From Burkholderiaceae bacterium (GTDB lineage: Bacteria; Pseudomonadota; Gammaproteobacteria; Burkholderiales; Burkholderiaceae_D), in NCBI GenBank assembly GCA_030158675.1, contig JAOASL010000045.1:41124-105123 (forward strand): a stretch of DNA of 64,000 nucleotides. The letters run 5' to 3'. The position numbers and the translations under genes are program-made. Each line of letters starts with the position of its first letter. Positions within the stretch are counted from its first letter, which is position 1. Below, piece by piece: positions 45,656 to 55,224 of the stretch. The notes below the pieces were generated by a model. It did not search any database. It was not told the DNA's origin and saw nothing but the letters and a program-made list of their open reading frames with translations.

Positions 45656-46615
45656 TCAGCCACCGGCCGCCTTGCGGCGATGCACCGCAAATTTCATCAA
45701 CTGGTCATCGCGCCAGCTGCGGCGCTCGTTCAGCTGCGAAGCCTGCAGCTTTTCGCGGCGCTGTCCTTCGACTTCAGCGATCAGCTGCGCGTCCCACGGA
45801 CGCTGCTGGTCGCGCGACGCGGCGATACGGTGAAACAGCGGACCGAAGCGCACGGCATAGTCGGCCACACCGTTCGGCGCGTTCAGGTCGATCGTCTCGA
45901 ACGGCCCCATGAACGACCAGCGCCAGCCGAGGCCGTCGCGGATCGTCTTGTCGATATCATCGGCGCTGGCCACGCCGTCGGCGACCATCGTCCATGCCTC
46001 GCGCAGCAGCACCGCCTGCAGCCGGTTCAGGATGAAGCCTTCGATTTCCTTGTTGACGCGCACGACCGACTGGCCGACTGCTTCCATCAGCTGGTGCGTC
46101 CAGTCGATGGTGGATGGCGCAGTCTGCGGCGAACCGACCAGCTCGACAATGGGCACCAGATAAGGCGGGTTGACCGGATGCGCGACCAGCACGCGCGGCG
46201 AGATCGCCAGGTTCAGCGCAAAGTCGGATGCCGGGAAGCCGGAGGTCGAACTGCCGACGATCAGATCAGCAAATCCGAGCGCATCGATCTCTTCCATCAG
46301 CTGCCGCTTGATGTCGACCTGCTCCAGCACCGACTCCTGCGCATAGGCCGCACCGTCCAGGGCGTCACGCAGGCTGTGCGCAACGCTGATGCGCGCACGA
46401 ATCACGTCGGCCGGCTCGGGCAGCAAACCGTAGGCGTCGAGCTGGGCGAGCTGCTGCGCGACCAGCGCCGGCGCACTCTCCAGCACCTGCGGCGCACGAT
46501 CGTACATTCGGACCGGCAGACCGGCGCGCGCGAACACGATGGCCCAGCCCGCGCCAACCAGACCGGCGCCGATTACGGCCACCGGCCTGCCGCCGGTCAG
46601 ATCAGTTACTTTCAT
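45656..46615 (-). CDS. 3-hydroxyacyl-CoA dehydrogenase-family protein, L-carnitine dehydrogenase/lambda-crystallin-like
   Basis: NAD-dependent dehydrogenase of 319 residues with the N-terminal motif V-I-G-A-G-L-V-G-A-G-W-A and the H-P-V-N-P-P-Y substrate strand (catalytic His). The length and the S-S-T-S-G-F-P-A-S text match the L-carnitine dehydrogenase/lambda-crystallin branch more than FadB-type enzymes. It is divergent from the BKACE gene 260 bp away. In carnitine catabolism such a dehydrogenase makes 3-dehydrocarnitine, which a BKACE then cleaves with acetyl-CoA. Confidence 0.82.
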   Translation of the reverse strand: MKVTDLTGGRPVAVIGAGLVGAGWAIVFARAGLPVRMYDRAPQVLESAPALVAQQLAQLDAYGLLPEPADVIRARISVAHSLRDALDGAAYAQESVLEQVDIKRQLMEEIDALGFADLIVGSSTSGFPASDFALNLAISPRVLVAHPVNPPYLVPIVELVGSPQTAPSTIDWTHQLMEAVGQSVVRVNKEIEGFILNRLQAVLLREAWTMVADGVASADDIDKTIRDGLGWRWSFMGPFETIDLNAPNGVADYAVRFGPLFHRIAASRDQQRPWDAQLIAEVEGQRREKLQASQLNERRSWRDDQLMKFAVHRRKAAGG

Positions 46616-46875
46616 GATGTCTCCTCATCTTTGTTTTGGTAATGGAATAAATACTGAAAAAGCGCGCAATGAAACGTCAAACCGGAACATAAAACCGAAA
46701 CAACCTTGCCTGGCGCGGCACGGCCGCATGACCGCCAGCCGGGGACGCGCTAGTGTGCGTCGCAGCGGCTGCGACCTGCATTCGCTTTCCACGAACCCGC
46801 GATTCCAATTGCCAAAACATGCTCAACTCAAAACGGGACACACTTTCGCCTGACCAAAAAAGACCAGGAGACCCT
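46616..46875. other. Intergenic region between the dehydrogenase and BKACE genes
   Basis: These 260 bp must carry divergent promoters for the two genes. I found no consensus promoter pair or clear dyad; a GGAG ribosome site lies just before ATG 46876. Confidence 0.3.
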
Positions 46876-47802
46876 ATGGCACGCAAAGTCATTATTACCT
46901 GCGCCGTTACCGGCGCGATCCACACCCCGTCGATGTCGCCGTACCTGCCGGTCACGGCGCGAGAGATCGCCGACGCGGCCCTGGGCGCGGCTGAGGCCGG
47001 CGCGGCCATCGTGCACCTGCACGCGCGCGAGCCGCACAACGGCAAGCCGTCGCAGGATCCGGCGCTGTTCACGCCGTTCCTGTCGGAGATCAAGGAAAAG
47101 AGCGACGTGGTGATCAATATCACCACCGGCGGCGCGCCGACGATGCTGGTGGAAGAACGGCTGCGTCCGGCCCATCAGTTCCAGCCGGAAGTCGCGTCGC
47201 TGAACATGGGTTCGATGAACTTCGGCCTGTACGGCATGCTGTCGCGCTTCAAGGAATTCAAGCATGACTGGGAACAGCCGTATCTGGCCGGCAGCGACGA
47301 CCGCGTGTTCAAGAACACCTTCCGCGACATCGCCTACATCCTCGAATCCTGCAGCGACAACGGCACGCGCTTCGAGATCGAGTGCTATGACATCGGCCAT
47401 CTGTACACGGCCGCACACTTCATCGACCGCGGACTGATCAAGGCGCCGTTCCTGATCCAGTCCGTGTTCGGCCTGCTCGGCGGCATCGGCACGCATCCGG
47501 AAGATGTCGCGCACATGAAACGCACCGCCGACCGTCTGTTCGGCAACAACTATGTCTGGTCGGTGCTGGGCGCCGGCAAGAGCCAGATGCCGATCAGCAC
47601 GCAATCGCTCGCGCTCGGCGGCAACGTGCGCGTCGGCCTCGAGGATTCGCTGTGGGACGGCCCCGGCCAGCTGGCACGCACCAACGCCGATCAGGTACGC
47701 CGCATCCGCAAGGTGATCGAAGGCCTGTCGCTGGAAGTGGCCACGCCTGACGAAGCACGTGCCATGCTGCAGCTCAAGGGACGCGACAACGTCAACTTCT
47801 GA
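46876..47802 (+). CDS. BKACE-family beta-keto acid cleavage enzyme (DUF849)
   Basis: Zinc-dependent enzyme of 308 residues that cleaves a beta-keto acid with acetyl-CoA to acetoacetate plus a CoA ester. The N-terminal C-A-V-T-G-A-I-H-T-P and the zinc motif V-H-L-H-A-R (about residue 48) are present, and the second half has F-E-I-E-C-Y-D. Start ATG 46876 is preceded by GGAG. The family has several substrate classes (dehydrocarnitine, beta-ketoadipate, others); the divergent dehydrogenase makes the carnitine or a similar 3-hydroxy acid possible. Confidence 0.87.
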   Translation: MARKVIITCAVTGAIHTPSMSPYLPVTAREIADAALGAAEAGAAIVHLHAREPHNGKPSQDPALFTPFLSEIKEKSDVVINITTGGAPTMLVEERLRPAHQFQPEVASLNMGSMNFGLYGMLSRFKEFKHDWEQPYLAGSDDRVFKNTFRDIAYILESCSDNGTRFEIECYDIGHLYTAAHFIDRGLIKAPFLIQSVFGLLGGIGTHPEDVAHMKRTADRLFGNNYVWSVLGAGKSQMPISTQSLALGGNVRVGLEDSLWDGPGQLARTNADQVRRIRKVIEGLSLEVATPDEARAMLQLKGRDNVNF

Positions 47803-47862: not shown

Positions 47863-48819
47863 ATGCATCTCCACATAATCACTCCCGCTCCTGCCGGCAG
47901 CTTGCACGGCAACCGTATGACCGCGCTGCGATGGCAGCGCCATCTGCGCGCGCTCGGGCATCAGGTCACCATGTCGAACCACTGGACCAGCGAACCGGCT
48001 GATGTGCTGGTCGCGCTGCATGCGCGACGCAGTCACGATGCGATCGCCGGATTTCGCGTGGCTCACCCCGACCGGCCAGTCGTACTGGTGCTGACCGGCA
48101 CGGATCTCTATCGCGATCTCGCCGGCGACGCGGATACGCGGGCATGCGTGCTGGCATCGATGCAGACCGCCGACCGTCTGGTGACGCTGCAGCAGGAAGC
48201 CATCGAGGCGATGCCGGCAGCGTTGCGCGACAAGGCAGTCACGATCCATCAATCGGTGCCGCCGATCGCGCGACAGCCGACGGTAGACAAGCGCTTTCTC
48301 GTCACCGTGCTGGGCCACCTGCGCGAAGAAAAAGATCCGTTCTGCATCGCGCGCGCGCTGCGCCACCTGCCGGAATCGCGCCAATTGCGGGTGCTCCATC
48401 TGGGCAAGGCGATGGACGAAGCACACCAGCGCAATGCCGAGCAGGCGATGCGGGAAGACAACCGCTATGCGTGGATAGGCGAACTGCCGCATCAGGCCGC
48501 ACTGCACTGGCTGTCTTCCAGCCACCTGATGGTGATCTCGAGCTGGATGGAAGGCGGCGCGCATGCGCTGTCCGAAGCGGTCGCGGCCGGCGTGCCGGTG
48601 CTGGCCTCCAACATTCCCGGCAACCGCGGCCTGCTCGGCGCCGATTATCCGGGCCTGTTCACCGCCGGCGACGACGCCGCGCTGGCGGCGCTGCTCAGGC
48701 AGGCGATGGATTCATCCGCATTTCTTGCCAGGCTGACCGATGCCGTGCTGGCGCGCCGCCCGCTGGTGTCGGCCGAGACCGAGCGCGAGCGCATCGCGCG
48801 CCTGATCGATAGTCTGTAG
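47863..48819 (+). CDS. senB: SenB-like glycosyltransferase (selenosugar synthase family)
   Basis: A 318-residue GT-B-type glycosyltransferase from ATG 47863, starting M-H-L-H-I-I-T-P-A-P-A-G-S-L-H-G-N-R. This opening and the overall text match the TIGR04348 family, later identified as SenB, which joins selenophosphate to UDP-GlcNAc to make a selenosugar for selenoneine. The C-terminal half has the usual nucleotide-sugar side (E-G-G-A-H-A-L-S-E-A-V-A-A-G-V-P-V). It converges with egtD and lies next to senA. Without senC/selD here the role is probable, not proven. Confidence 0.78.
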   Translation: MHLHIITPAPAGSLHGNRMTALRWQRHLRALGHQVTMSNHWTSEPADVLVALHARRSHDAIAGFRVAHPDRPVVLVLTGTDLYRDLAGDADTRACVLASMQTADRLVTLQQEAIEAMPAALRDKAVTIHQSVPPIARQPTVDKRFLVTVLGHLREEKDPFCIARALRHLPESRQLRVLHLGKAMDEAHQRNAEQAMREDNRYAWIGELPHQAALHWLSSSHLMVISSWMEGGAHALSEAVAAGVPVLASNIPGNRGLLGADYPGLFTAGDDAALAALLRQAMDSSAFLARLTDAVLARRPLVSAETERERIARLIDSL

Positions 48820-48835
48820 AAGACTGATCCGGCAG

Positions 48836-49813
48836 TCACTCACGCTCATCGGTGGTGGCGAGGAACACGGCGAAATACGCCCGTTCGTCGGTCCAGCTGC
48901 GTACGTTCGCAAAGCCGGCGTCTTTCAGCAGCGCGGTGAAATCGGCAGTCGTGTATTTGTAGCTGTTCTCGGTATGCAGAGTCTGGCCGGCCGCGAACTC
49001 GCGTCGCCCGGGCAGGCCGCCGGCGGCCGGGCAGCGCCAGTGCACCGTCAGCGATTCACGCGCGCGCAGATGCATCTCGATGCGCGCCGCGCGCACATCG
49101 AAGAACGCCACATGGTCCCATTGCCGCGGCTGGAAATCGCTGGCGATCAAGCGGTTCAGGTGACGCAGCAGATTCAGGTTGAAAGCCGCGGTCACCCCCA
49201 GCGCATCGTTATACGCCGCATGCAACACCGCCGCATCCTTGACCAGATCAACGCCGATCAGCAAGCCACCCTGCCCGCGGCAATCGGCCCGCATGCGCGC
49301 AGCCAGCGCGCGCGCCTCCGCCGGCGTGAAGTTGCCGATCGATGAGCCGGGATAGAAAAACAGCCGGCTGCCGCCGGCCTCGGGCAGCGGCCAGCGCTGC
49401 GTGATGTCGGCGCCGACGGCGCTCATCGCGACGGCCGGGAAATCGGGCCGCAGCGACTGCAGCGCCTGTTCGACAAAATACGCCGACACATCCAGCGCCA
49501 GATAGTGCGCCGGACGCAGCGCCGGCAGCAGGTGACGCACTTTTTCGCAGTTGCCTGCACCCGGCTCGATCAGCCAGTCGCAGTCCCCGACGGCATCGGC
49601 GACTGCGGCGGCGATCTCGGTCGCATGCCGGCGCAGCAGGCCATGCTCGGTCACGGTCGGGTAGTACTCGTCGAGCAGCGTAATGACTTCGAACAGTCGC
49701 GAGCCGGCCAGGTCATAGAAATATTTGGGTGACACCCGGGCTTGTGGTGCCAGCAATCCTGCGATCAGCTGCGCGTGCTCGTCGTTATCCATGCCTTGCT
49801 GAAGGTCCGTCAT
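48836..49813 (-). CDS. egtD: L-histidine N-alpha-methyltransferase EgtD
   Basis: SAM-dependent methyltransferase of 325 residues from ATG 49813 that converts histidine to hercynine, the shared precursor of ergothioneine and selenoneine. Motifs visible are I-E-P-G-A-G-N-C-E-K-V, F-F-Y-P-G-S-S-I-G-N-F-T-P and H-T-E-N-S-Y-K-Y-T, all characteristic of EgtD. It starts 25 bp after the senA/egtB-like stop and is in the same leftward unit. It converges with senB, leaving only 16 bp between stops. Confidence 0.9.
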   Translation of the reverse strand: MTDLQQGMDNDEHAQLIAGLLAPQARVSPKYFYDLAGSRLFEVITLLDEYYPTVTEHGLLRRHATEIAAAVADAVGDCDWLIEPGAGNCEKVRHLLPALRPAHYLALDVSAYFVEQALQSLRPDFPAVAMSAVGADITQRWPLPEAGGSRLFFYPGSSIGNFTPAEARALAARMRADCRGQGGLLIGVDLVKDAAVLHAAYNDALGVTAAFNLNLLRHLNRLIASDFQPRQWDHVAFFDVRAARIEMHLRARESLTVHWRCPAAGGLPGRREFAAGQTLHTENSYKYTTADFTALLKDAGFANVRSWTDERAYFAVFLATTDERE

Positions 49814-49838
49814 CACCGCTCCTGATTCCTGATAGCTT

Positions 49839-50990
49839 CTATGCATCGATGGCACAGGTTCGAAAGCCGCTGAACACATCGCCGCGCTCCGGCAGGTAAA
49901 AATTTCGGTAGCCGGCACGCCGCAGGCGCGGCGCAGTCCAGCAGCTGCCGCCTTTGAGCACGCGATGGCGGCCGTCGAACCACGGGCGCGAATAATCGGC
50001 ATAGGGATCAGCCCGAAAACCGGGAAACGGCGCGAACAGGCTCGATGTCCACTCCCATACACCGGCAAACGCCTGCGCCGGCGCAATCGCCGTTGCGAAG
50101 CGCAGCCATTCGAATTCGGTCGGCAGCCGGCGTCCGGCCCAGGCGCAATAGGCGTCAGCCTCGACCGCGCTCACATGGCAGACGGGTGCATCATGATCGA
50201 GCGGCCGCCAGCGATCGCGCACCCGCTGTTCCCACTGCGCGCCGCTGCGACGCCAGTAGCGCGGCATGCGCTGTTCCGGGTCGCCTTCAACGAAGGCCAG
50301 ATACGCGCCGTTGCTGACCGGCGCGCTGTCGATCGTGAAAGCCGGTACATGCACGCGGTGCCCCCACTTCTCATTGTCGAACACGAAACCTTCGCCGCAG
50401 CGCGCGCCAACCTCGATGTCGGCAGCGTCAACCCGGCACGGCACGAGCTGCGCGCTGACCCCGTGCCCATAAGGCGGCAGATCGTCCGGCCACGGCCAGC
50501 CGGTCGTTTGCCAGCTGTAGGCGAAGGCTTCGTTGTGCATATCCTGATGAAACAGCGACAGCTGAATGAAATACGCATCCGCCGGATCCGGCTGCGCCGC
50601 CGGATGGCTTAGTCGCTGCTTCGTGTGCTCGAACACGCTGCACAGATAGGCGCGCAGCGCCGGCGCCGACGGCAGCGGCAAATCCCAGCGCGTGTCGTGG
50701 GCGACGACGGAAGAATTGAACAGCGCGTCGGCATCGCGCAGGCACGAGAGCCGCGCTGCGTCACCACGGCGCTGCACCCAGAATTCGTGGAACCACGCCA
50801 GATGGCCGAACTCCCACAGCGGCGGATTGACGATGGCCAGCTTCGGCATCTGCAGGCCGAGCGCAATGAAGTGATCGAACAGCCGCAGCGTGCGCCGCTG
50901 GCTTTCAGCCAGTCCGGCGAGCAGCGCTGCGGGCGCCGGCAAGCAGCCGTAGCGCAGGTAATCGTCCGCCTCAGGCGCGATGTGATCCAC
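49839..50990 (-). CDS. senA: SenA/EgtB-like non-haem iron enzyme
   Basis: Formylglycine-generating-enzyme-like iron oxidase of about 383 residues, from a GTG at 50990 with GGAG just upstream; an extension to 51149 is not supported. A DinB-like N-terminal bundle carries the iron ligands H63 and H148-x-x-x-H152-x-E154 (H-Q-D-M-H-N-E). The C-terminal FGE-sulfatase domain begins near 215 and ends with W-E-W-T-S-S and R-V-L-K-G-G-S-C-W. EgtB joins hercynine with a thiol; SenA does the same with a selenosugar. The SenB neighbour favours SenA. Confidence 0.8.
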   Translation of the reverse strand: MDHIAPEADDYLRYGCLPAPAALLAGLAESQRRTLRLFDHFIALGLQMPKLAIVNPPLWEFGHLAWFHEFWVQRRGDAARLSCLRDADALFNSSVVAHDTRWDLPLPSAPALRAYLCSVFEHTKQRLSHPAAQPDPADAYFIQLSLFHQDMHNEAFAYSWQTTGWPWPDDLPPYGHGVSAQLVPCRVDAADIEVGARCGEGFVFDNEKWGHRVHVPAFTIDSAPVSNGAYLAFVEGDPEQRMPRYWRRSGAQWEQRVRDRWRPLDHDAPVCHVSAVEADAYCAWAGRRLPTEFEWLRFATAIAPAQAFAGVWEWTSSLFAPFPGFRADPYADYSRPWFDGRHRVLKGGSCWTAPRLRRAGYRNFYLPERGDVFSGFRTCAIDA

Positions 50991-51301
50991 AAGCTCTCTC
51001 CTTCTTCTGTCGCTTATCTTGCGCGATCCGGCGCGATGACGCCGAAGCCTGACGAGGATTATCGGGCCAAGCGTTCGACCACCCGCAATTATTTGACACG
51101 AGTTAAATAATTTTGGCGAGCAAACACTCACGCTACGGCGAACGATCAACCAACCGTTATGAAAAACAATGCAAACAAGATCGAGTTCACCGGCCCGGCC
51201 GCGATGGCCGCCGCCCGACTGAAGATTCAGAAGGGACTGCTGAACAACGCTATCGTCAGCGTCTATACCTCAGACCTGTAAGAGCCTGTGCTGTCAGGCA
51301 C
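50991..51301. promoter_or_regulatory. Intergenic region upstream of senA with AT-rich inverted repeat and small ORF
   Basis: These 311 bp separate leftward senA from leftward GT2. A perfect dyad AATTATTT (51087-51094) / AAATAATT (51105-51112) with 10 bp between lies 97-122 bp upstream of senA, a candidate operator. TTGACA at 51093-51098 overlaps it. A 40-codon frame occupies 51159-51281. Otherwise no gene is seen. Confidence 0.5.
51159..51281 (+). CDS. Possible 40-residue peptide
   Basis: ATG 51159 to TAA 51281 encodes 40 residues: a polar start (M-K-N-N-A-N-K), a middle G-P-A-A-M-A-A-A-R-L-K and the ending N-N-A-I-V-S-V-Y-T-S-D-L. I recognise no family. There is no ribosome site of the usual kind upstream. 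It lies 47 bp downstream of the AT-rich dyad and points away from senA, so it could be regulated with it. It could equally be chance in a 311-bp gap. Confidence 0.35.
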   Translation: MKNNANKIEFTGPAAMAAARLKIQKGLLNNAIVSVYTSDL

Positions 51302-52306
51302 CTACAAAAAAAATGTCCGGAAACGGATCGCACCGACCGCGCGCCAGAACACTGCCAGCGGCGGAATCAGCACTGAGGTGACGAGCAACGCAGCCACGGC
51401 AGACGGCTGGCGACTGGTGCCGCGCAAACGCCTGCGGAAGAAGGCGCCGACCGACAGCAGCCACACCGGCAGCGCCAGCGCCGCCAGCACGGGCTGCCCG
51501 GCCGGCAGTGCCGCAATACCCAGCGCCAGCGCGACCGTGCACAGATAGTAATCCCAGCGCGGAGCGCGCCTGATGGTCTGCCGGTAACGGCGCCGGTGCT
51601 TCTTGTAGAGCAGCGCATCGAACAGGATCTTGCGCTGCTGCGTCAGGCTCACCAGCCAGCCTGCCGGCCGTACCGGATGCAGTACCACAGCGTCACCGAC
51701 GAACAGCACGCGTGCGCCGGCATCGCATAGCCGGAAATACAGATCCGTATCTTCACGCCACGCCACCCGGAAACGTTCATCGAAGCCGCCGATCCGCTCA
51801 AGCAGCGCACGCCGGCAAAAACAATTGGCGGTAACAAAACCGGCCTGCTGCAGCCGGCCCGCATCGCGTTCGTAATCAGTCGGCAGCGCAGGCAGCGGCA
51901 CCGCCACATTTCCCCAGAGCGCATCCGCTGCCGCCGCATCGGCGTTGCCCGCAGTGAACGCGACGCAAGCACGCGCGAGCCAGTCAGGCTGTGCAATCGT
52001 ATCGTCATCGGTAAAGCCTACCCACGCGCTGCGGGCGGCGCGCCAGCCGAGATTGCGCGCCGCTGCCGGCCCGTGCCGGCCCGTGTTGCGCAGGCAATGC
52101 ACGCTCAGCCCGCGCCGACGCGCCTGCGCGCAACAAGCGCTGATTGCCGTTTGCGCGGACGGGTCTGTTGCGCGACTGTCGTCGACGACGATCAGCTCAA
52201 ACTGGTCCGGCCGCAGCGTCTGCGCGCACAGGCTGTCGACACAACGTGCCAGCAGCGCGATGCGACCGCAGGTCGGCACCACGACGGAAACGAGGGGCGA
52301 ATTCAT
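51302..52306 (-). CDS. Family 2 glycosyltransferase
   Basis: GT-A glycosyltransferase of 334 residues from ATG 52306. The N terminus S-V-V-V-P-T-C-G-R is standard, followed by I-V-V-D-D-S (metal/nucleotide strand), T-D-D-D-T (second acidic cluster) and R-E-D-T-D-L (base region). A hydrophobic C-terminal region of two or three helices suggests membrane attachment. It diverges from the carbamoyltransferase across 138 bp. With that gene and the UDP-xylose-synthase-like gene it may build or decorate a surface glycan. Confidence 0.86.
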   Translation of the reverse strand: MNSPLVSVVVPTCGRIALLARCVDSLCAQTLRPDQFELIVVDDSRATDPSAQTAISACCAQARRRGLSVHCLRNTGRHGPAAARNLGWRAARSAWVGFTDDDTIAQPDWLARACVAFTAGNADAAAADALWGNVAVPLPALPTDYERDAGRLQQAGFVTANCFCRRALLERIGGFDERFRVAWREDTDLYFRLCDAGARVLFVGDAVVLHPVRPAGWLVSLTQQRKILFDALLYKKHRRRYRQTIRRAPRWDYYLCTVALALGIAALPAGQPVLAALALPVWLLSVGAFFRRRLRGTSRQPSAVAALLVTSVLIPPLAVFWRAVGAIRFRTFFL

Positions 52307-52444
52307 CCACGACAAGCTGCAAGCTTCGTTCCAGCGCAGCGCATTTGTCGCGCATTGTTGCCTGTTGCAGCAACAGGTCAGCAGCATCACGAAATGGCAC
52401 GGCATTTGCAGCATCTCATGCCTGAACCCGGAGGAGCCTGTCCC

Positions 52445-54190
52445 ATGCTGACCCTCGGAATCAATGCCGCCTTTCATGACTGCTCGGCCTGCATCGTGCG
52501 CGATGGCATCGTGCTGGCCGCCACCGAAGAGGAACGCTTCACGCGCATAAAGCATGGCAAGCGGCCGGTGCCGTTCAGCGTGTGGCAATTGCCCTTCCAT
52601 GCAATCGACTACTGCCTGCAAGAGGCGGGCGCGACGCTGGCCGATATCGATCATGTCGCCTATGCGTACGACCCGTGGATGCAAATCGCGCGTGACAGGA
52701 CATCGATCGCGCTGCCGCTGCAACCCTCGTTACAAGCGTCGTCGGCAGCGCCCGGAGACGCCCGGTCGCCCTGGGAGCCGCTGGCGCTTTGTTACGCAGT
52801 CAATGCACCGCTTCAGCTGGCCGGCGGCGCACCGCACCACCTGCGCGAACGCTTCGCCGGTGCGACCGCGAAGACCGGCACGCCGTACCGCTGGCATTTC
52901 GTCGAACATCATCGCGCGCACGAGGCCAGCGCCTTTCTTGCCGCTCCCTTCGACGACTGCGCGGTGCTGGCCATCGACGGACGCGGCGAACGCGCCACGA
53001 CCAGCTATGGCGTGTATCGCGATGGCCGCTACCGGCGGCTGCGGCAGCTGGACCTGCCGCATTCGCTCGGCCTGCTGTATGAGGCCGTGACCACCCACCT
53101 CGGCTTCCTGCATTCGTCCGATGAGTACAAGGTGATGGCGCTGGCCTCCTATGGCGAGCCGGTGTATGCGGCAGCCTTGTCGAAGCGCGTGCGCTGGCTC
53201 GGTGACGGCGACTGCCACATGGCGCCGCTCGACTGCGCCACATTGTTCGGACCGCCACGGCAGCGTGGCGCAGCACTGCTGCGACGCCATTTCGATGTGG
53301 CGCGCTCTTTGCAGCAGGTACTGGAAGACACGGTCCTGAAGATGGCACGCTGGCTGCATGAACAGACGCAATCGCCGCGCCTGGCGCTGGCCGGCGGCGT
53401 GGCACTGAACTGCGTGATGAATGCGCGGCTGCGCGACGAAGGCCCGTGGCAGCAAGTCTGGGTGCAGCCGGCCGCCGGTGACGCCGGCACGGCATTGGGC
53501 GCTGCGCTGTGGATTGATGCGCAACAGCGCGGCGACGGCCAGCGCCGCTGGCAAATGACGCATGCCTATCTCGGGCCGGCCTTCGCGGATGACGCCATCG
53601 AACGCTTGCTGCAACAGGCGCGCCTGCCCTACCGCCGCGCGCGCGATCTGGCAACCGAGACTGCGGCGCTGCTGGCGCAGGACAAAGTGGTCGGCTGGTT
53701 CCAGCAACGAATGGAATTCGGCCCGCGCGCGCTCGGCGCGCGCTCCATCCTGGCGTCGCCGCTGCATGCCGGGATGCAGGCCAGGCTAAACCTGATCAAG
53801 GATCGCGAAGACTTCCGTCCGGTCGCGCCCGTGGTGCCCGACGAGGATGCGGATCAGTGGTTTGAGGGGGCCCGCGATGCGCCGTTCATGACCTTCGTGT
53901 TTCGCGTGCGCGCCGACCAGGCCGCGCGCATACCCGCGGTGCGGCATGTCGACGGCACCGCACGCGTGCAGACGGTGACGCACGCGCAAAATCCGGCATT
54001 GCATGCGCTGCTGCAGGCGTTCAGGCGGCAGACCGGCGTGCCGGTGCTGGTGAACACCTCGTTCAACACGCGTGGCCAGCCGATGGTATGCACGCCGCGC
54101 GATGCGCTTGAATCGTTCTGCACGACGGCGCTGGATGCGCTGGCGATCGGCTCGTTCATTGTCGACAAATCAGATTGGGGACACGCATGA
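52445..54190 (+). CDS. Carbamoyltransferase of the NodU/CmcH family
   Basis: A 581-residue enzyme that transfers a carbamoyl group from carbamoyl phosphate through a carbamoyl-adenylate. The YrdC/Kae1-like N-terminal domain has [12 protein letters not shown] and [11 protein letters not shown] (iron-binding His). The C-terminal domain has [12 protein letters not shown] and [11 protein letters not shown]. From ATG 52445. The stop overlaps the next start (ATGA at 54187-54190). The acceptor is probably a sugar, given the neighbours. Confidence 0.9.
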
Positions 54191-55224
54191 TGAAGCGTCC
54201 TGCGCGCATCCTCGTCACCGGTGGCGCCGGCTTTCTCGGTTCGCATGTGTGCGAACGGCTGCTGCTGGAAGGCCACGACATTCTGTGCGTCGACAATTTC
54301 TCCAGCGGCAGCAAGCGCAATATCGCGCACCTGCTTGGCCATCCGCGCTTCGAACTGCTGCGGCATGACGTCAGTTTTCCGCTGTATGTGGAGGTTGATG
54401 AGATCTATAACCTGGCCTGCCCGGCGTCGCCGCCGCAATATCAGCAAGACCCGGTGCAAACCACCAAGACCAGCGTACATGGCGCCATCCATCTGCTCGG
54501 ACTGGCCCGCCGTACCGGCGCGCGGCTGCTGCAGGCATCGACCAGCGAGGTATATGGCGATCCGGTCTGTCATCCGCAGCGCGAGGATTACTGGGGTCAT
54601 GTGAATCCGGTCGGACCGCGCGCCTGCTACGACGAGGGCAAGCGCTGCGCCGAGACACTGTGCATGGATTACCGCCGCCGGCACGGCTTGTGCGTCAAGG
54701 TCGCGCGCATCTTCAATACCTATGGACCGCGTATGCTGGCCGACGATGGCCGGGTGGTGTCGAACTTCGTCGTGCAGGCGCTGACGGGCCGCGCGCTGAC
54801 GGTGTTCGGCAACGGCCGGCAGACGCGCTCGTTCTGCTATGTCGACGACCTGGTCGACGGGCTGCTGCGGCTGATGGCCAGCGCAGATGATTTCTGCGGC
54901 CCGGTCAATCTCGGCAATCCGGTCGAGTCGACGATGCTGGAACTGGCGCGGAAGGTGATTGCGCTGACCGGCTCAGGCGCAGCGATAGACTTCGCGCCGC
55001 TGCCGGTGGATGATCCCGCGCGCCGGCGGCCGGATATTTCGCTGGCACAGCAGCGGCTGAGCTGGCAGCCGGCCGTGTCGCTGCATGACGGGCTGGAAAA
55101 GACAATCGATTATTTTCGCGGGCTGCTGCCGCCGGAGCCACCGCAGCCACCGGCATCGCGGCCGCCCGCGCCGGGCTGGCTGGCGGTCGGGCAGGCGCCG
55201 TCGCCGAGCCGGCTGCGGCATTGA
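54187..55224 (+). CDS. UDP-glucuronate decarboxylase (UDP-xylose synthase)-like
   Basis: Extended SDR of 345 residues starting at ATG 54187, overlapping the carbamoyltransferase stop. N-terminal [10 protein letters not shown], then [10 protein letters not shown], the UXS signature, catalytic S-T-S-E-V-Y-G and Y-D-E-G-K-R. This oxidises, decarboxylates and reduces UDP-GlcA to UDP-xylose. A Pro-rich tail of about 30 residues follows the fold. A close relation to GDP- or TDP-sugar dehydratases cannot be excluded. Confidence 0.87.

Follow-up and report, generated by a model that had tools for sequence, protein, structure and literature searches.

The senB, egtD and senA genes that lie side by side in the window (i.e. 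the whole analysed stretch of 64,000 nucleotides) very probably specify a pathway for the selenium-containing antioxidant selenoneine, for which the selenophosphate donor is encoded elsewhere in the genome, and on the basis of the sequence data selenoneine is the most likely product of the locus. The identity of the genes, their phylogenetic placement, the conservation of the catalytic residues and the presence of SelD in the genome are observed, and from these we infer the chemistry. In the proposed route, EgtD would convert histidine into hercynine by trimethylation, the single SelD of the genome would make selenophosphate from selenide and ATP, SenB would combine the selenophosphate with a UDP-sugar (by analogy preferably UDP-GlcNAc) to yield a selenosugar, and the non-haem iron enzyme SenA would join this selenosugar to hercynine, after which selenoneine would be formed. 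The locus would represent a compact form of the arrangement found in Polynucleobacter, i.e. senA-selD-(sometimes a putative selenate ABC transporter)-egtD in convergent orientation with senB, with the resident SelD taking over. The original prediction had put forward a candidate selenoneine locus in which egtD supplies hercynine, a proposal to which the placement of SenA and the presence of selD in the genome lend support; its alternative, namely that the locus makes a different product, found no support.

Organisation of the locus

The host genome has a size of 3.0 Mb and a completeness of 100%. Within the window, senB (47863-48819, + strand) encodes a predicted selenosugar synthase (Se-glycosyltransferase) of 318 aa that scores 380 bits on model TIGR04348 (cut-off 300), egtD (48836-49813, - strand) a predicted histidine N-alpha-trimethyltransferase of 325 aa that gives hercynine (345 bits on TIGR03438, cut-off 290.9; 323 bits on Pfam Methyltransf_33), and senA (49839-50990, - strand) a predicted iron-dependent selenoneine synthase of 383 aa (411 bits on NF041186). 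These scores confirm the earlier recognition of a SenB-type gene beside egtD and an EgtB/SenA-type iron enzyme, and all three reading frames are open and intact at the coordinates given before. The senB gene converges on the senA-egtD pair, with some 17 bp between the stops of egtD and senB. As the gap between senA and the start of egtD is only about 25 bp, these two genes probably form one operon. Ribosome-binding-like sequences precede both, i.e. AAGGAG upstream of the GTG start of senA and AGGAG upstream of the ATG start of egtD. The GC content of the locus (0.657) is ordinary compared to the window mean (0.639), and no Rfam elements were found across 46-53 kb of the window.

Several neighbouring frames were noted. 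A 40-codon open frame (51159-51281, + strand; MKNNANKIEFTGPAAMAAARLKIQKGLLNNAIVSVYTSDL) is divergent from senA, and its only match among the fetched loci is the window's own copy. The stretch 45656-47802 holds, on the + strand just upstream of senB, a gene of the BKACE family (544 bits on NF053538), which adjoins a 3-hydroxyacyl-CoA dehydrogenase gene on the opposite strand; the two are possibly a small catabolic unit without relation to selenium. On the other side, inspection by eye of the open reading frame list revealed a long carbamoyltransferase-like frame (52073-54190, + strand) followed by a frame resembling NAD-dependent sugar epimerases (54175-55224).

The Se-glycosyltransferase SenB

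The solved structures that best match the SenB of the window are those of the Se-glycosyltransferase 8k5u (215 bits) and of SenB itself (8jjq/8fbx, 183 bits). The catalytic and selenophosphate-binding residues of the Variovorax paradoxus enzyme have been assigned roles (PMC10891094, PMC10702425), and in the alignment V. paradoxus N20, T23, H58, R61, T83, T85, R155, K158, E231 and E239 are all kept, as N17, T20, H53, R56, T78, T80, R154, K157, E230 and E238, respectively. Besides exceeding the TIGR04348 cut-off, the protein thus retains each of the nine residues used to delineate the family (K158, R155, N20, E231, E239, H58, R61, T83 and T85 in V. paradoxus numbering). V. paradoxus R22 is replaced by M19, in a column that is variable across the family; mutation of R22 lowers the activity of the V. 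paradoxus enzyme moderately (PMC10891094, PMC10702425). A chance match to a glycosyltransferase was considered and rejected: the six other matches to the SenB model in the genome reach 33 bits at most. Searching the genome collection with the single SenB sequence gave no match, and searching it with the alignment gave 571 relatives.

The iron enzyme belongs to a divergent SenA clade

The enzyme encoded by senA scores 411.4 bits on the SenA model NF041186 (cut-off 420) and 220.6 bits on the EgtB model TIGR03440 (cut-off 360), and it passes the EgtB-related signature TIGR04373. It carries the iron-site motifs 'GHLAWFHE' and 'FHQDMHNEA', i.e. the iron-binding histidine and the HxxxHxE motif expected of a SenA, and among the solved structures it is closest to SenA (8ryz/8k5i, 236 bits), followed by OvsA (187) and EgtB (127). 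In a tree of 68 sequences it falls on the side of SenA and OvsA (49 rows, support 100/98), apart from a clade of canonical-type EgtBs (18 rows, 100/100) that nearly all adjoin egtD; its sister (98/99) is the protein of locus L102, which comprises senA, selD, egtD and senB. When 28 diagnostic columns were taken that separate the SenA side from the EgtB side at 80% or more, the window enzyme proved SenA-like in 27 and like neither in one. Five of its clade mates that are encoded beside selD and egtD/senB score 374-398 bits on the SenA model and the protein of L102 scores 379, all below 420, and therefore the NF041186 cut-off does not separate this clade. The narrow miss of the cut-off appears to reflect the divergence of the clade, and judged by its sequence the iron enzyme is a SenA and not an EgtB, which answers the question that the original prediction had wanted settled by phylogeny.

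It is very unlikely that the enzyme is an EgtB that works with EgtD in ergothioneine synthesis, and that senB has no connection with the two and yields a selenosugar or some other sugar product. Such a reading would fit the location of egtD, which follows immediately in what is probably one operon and thereby resembles the EgtB-EgtD pairs of relatives; it would also fit the narrowly missed SenA cut-off and the fact that at least 18 genomes of the order sample have SenB but no SenA (see below). However, the tree and the diagnostic residues put the enzyme outside EgtB, and an AU test rejected its union with the EgtBs of the same family (p = 0.008). Moreover, the EgtB model gives 544-555 bits for two tested EgtBs of that family and 220 for the window enzyme, and egtD and senB are likewise convergent in Polynucleobacter-type clusters that include senA and selD. 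The EgtBs of the family reach about 393-397 bits on the SenA model, and a search of the host genome with that model gave no second match of the SenA/EgtB class near full score, so that a separate EgtB in the genome is unlikely.

We consider it slightly less probable still that the enzyme is OvsA-like (ovoselenol branch) or gives a different selenium-histidine product. In the tree OvsA does fall on the same side as SenA, and it provides the next-best solved structure (187 bits), but it pairs with L113 (100/100), the window enzyme being located elsewhere and outside the OvsA family. At five positions the enzyme also has residues typical of SenA (P329, P336, W337, W71 and A155), the OvsA counterparts being M, L, Q, F and S, and the egtD of the operon provides hercynine, i.e. 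the substrate of SenA.

Probable supply of selenophosphate by a single SelD on another contig

Among the open reading frames next to senB, egtD and senA (~47-51 kb) no SelD-like gene was found, and the locus therefore lacks the senC (SelD type) that marks the three-gene sen cluster. The earlier statement that no SelD-like gene is present thus holds for the locus and not for the genome: own-genome searches, performed family by family, recovered one full-length SelD, encoded on contig C4 (40205-41134) between unrelated genes, with a score of 440 bits (cut-off 125) and a GCGCK motif. The suggestion that selenophosphate comes from elsewhere is in agreement with this location. The genome also has selA (543 bits), which together with selB and tRNA-Sec lies next to genes for formate dehydrogenase, and mnmH (362 bits; 485 bits on a sharper model). 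SenA, SenB, EgtD and SelD, i.e. the complete set for selenoneine, are hence present in one genome, and the single SelD probably feeds the selenocysteine, selenouridine and selenoneine pathways. For the selenate-type binding protein the host genome yielded distant PhnD-type proteins (best 27% identity) and no close relative.

Adjacent senA and senB with a remote selD are common in the order

A sample of 349 genomes of the order was searched, in which SenB exceeded the cut-off in 106. In at least 11 of these 106 genomes (the window included) SenA is adjacent to SenB while SelD lies on a different contig or at a distance exceeding 6 kb, and it follows that a remote selD is an ordinary arrangement that poses no puzzle. 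Both SenA and SelD adjoin SenB in 13 of the 106, and in a further 33 SenA is adjacent and the position of SelD is not among the matches listed. The least probable reading, namely that the pathway has decayed or is idle, senC having been lost and selenoneine no longer being made by the genes left, could draw on the absence from the window of the selD and transporter genes that relatives have between senA and egtD, but it is countered by the three open frames with their kept catalytic residues and the ribosome-binding-like sites at senA and egtD, by the intact SelD in the genome, and by the other genomes with adjacent senAB that likewise have selD elsewhere.

In at least 18 of the 106 SenB genomes no homologue of SenA/EgtB was found at E <= 1e-60 (e.g. 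L124, L126, L130, L187, L199 and L204). Thirty loci were treated as lacking SenA, and 23 of them encode a putative RNA methyltransferase near senB on the opposite strand, often with rnhB and lpxB close by; in L123 and L125 SelD adjoins SenB. The SenB of such loci may produce a selenosugar that serves a different function; alternatively, the scope of TIGR04348 may be wider than the model name suggests.

Polynucleobacter-type clusters and the probable origin of the locus

In Polynucleobacter and similar MAGs, which have the clusters most closely related to that of the window, the gene order is senA-selD-egtD, convergent with senB. The convergence of egtD and senB is found in ten Polynucleobacter-type clusters that have senA and selD (L102, L145, L148, L149, L151, L153, L154, L155, L157 and L159) and in L152. 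Four ABC-transporter genes separate selD from egtD in L102, L152, L153 and L155, and in L102 and L152 the binding protein scores above the threshold of TIGR04553 ('putative selenate ABC transporter substrate-binding protein'). Such a putative selenate transporter operon, with a TIGR04553 binding protein and PhnC/PhnE-like components, is found repeatedly next to selD or egtD in sen loci (L102, 7741-11070; L152, 11926-15299; beside egtD in L087, L089, L092, L093, L094 and L218). The window shares with the Polynucleobacter-type cluster (L102, L149, L152, L153, L155 and L159) the order and orientation of senA, egtD and senB as well as the phylogeny of the three proteins; it differs in lacking the selD, and the transporter that some have, between senA and egtD, and in having a SelD of the host-family type on another contig.

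The grouping with the Polynucleobacter-type clusters has a support of 90 for SenA, 86 for SenB and 95 for EgtD (starred for EgtD, unstarred for the other two), and the window branches within these groups are long. In AU tests, for which the groups were chosen after the trees had been seen, grouping with the same family was rejected for SenA (p = 0.04, an especially weak value), SenB (p = 8e-6) and EgtD (p = 0.008), and for SelD, which sits with the SelDs of the same family at a support of only 77, grouping with the cluster-type SelD was rejected (p = 1e-69). We take the host family to be Oxalobacteraceae because a named neighbour of the SelD, Keguizhuia sedimenti, is a member of that family. 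Since SenA, SenB and EgtD go with the cluster type and SelD with the host family, the cluster probably came from outside, i.e. from a Burkholderiaceae-like source into an Oxalobacteraceae-related host, where it would use the resident SelD; this is the simplest reading, with the selD and transporter of the cluster lost before or after arrival. The composition lends no support to a transfer, the GC content of the locus being ordinary, and together with the long branches this makes an old event or an unsampled donor likely. Taken as a whole, we lean somewhat towards a mosaic selenium metabolism, in which a foreign selenoneine cluster that never had or has lost its own selD and selenate transporter was rewired onto the single SelD of the host, which would divide selenophosphate among selenocysteine, selenouridine and selenoneine.

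Implications and comparison with known systems

A local senC would not be required for recognising selenoneine producers, and screens that start from the neighbours of selD would miss the window locus. Since SenAs of the divergent clade score under the present NCBIfam threshold, genomes of this kind may carry no annotation beyond EgtB-like. An organism whose single SelD would have three uses should offer a simple setting for studying the sharing of selenophosphate.

Our survey of the open literature gave no report of selenoneine in Polynucleobacter or of senAB with a remote selD, an earlier mention in the original Nature paper being possible. Among relatives of the same family, L084, L087, L089, L092, L093 and L218 combine senB-selD genes with a canonical egtB-egtD pair in a stretch of ~12 kb, in some cases with senA too; L093 (G321) has senB-selD and EgtB and no separate SenA at E <= 1e-60. 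The canonical pairs of the family (L083, L085, L092 and L094) resemble the window in that egtD lies beside an iron enzyme of the FGE type, but their enzymes form a separate clade, with two tested members at 544-555 bits on the EgtB model, and no such pair was found in the genome of the window. The published sen cluster, senA-senB-senC of V. paradoxus (Kayrouz et al. 2022, as cited through PMC9814287 and PMC10891094), includes a local SelD-type gene (PMC9814287), SelD and SenC being treated as the same activity (PMC10891094). It has in common with the window the SenA and SenB families, a selenophosphate source of the SelD type and hercynine as acceptor, whereas the window has no local senC, contains egtD inside the locus, has senB converging on senA-egtD and encodes a SenA of a divergent clade. 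Selenoneine loci are already known, and by the evidence of its genes the window would be a further example, one with a divergent-clade SenA and with selD elsewhere in the genome.
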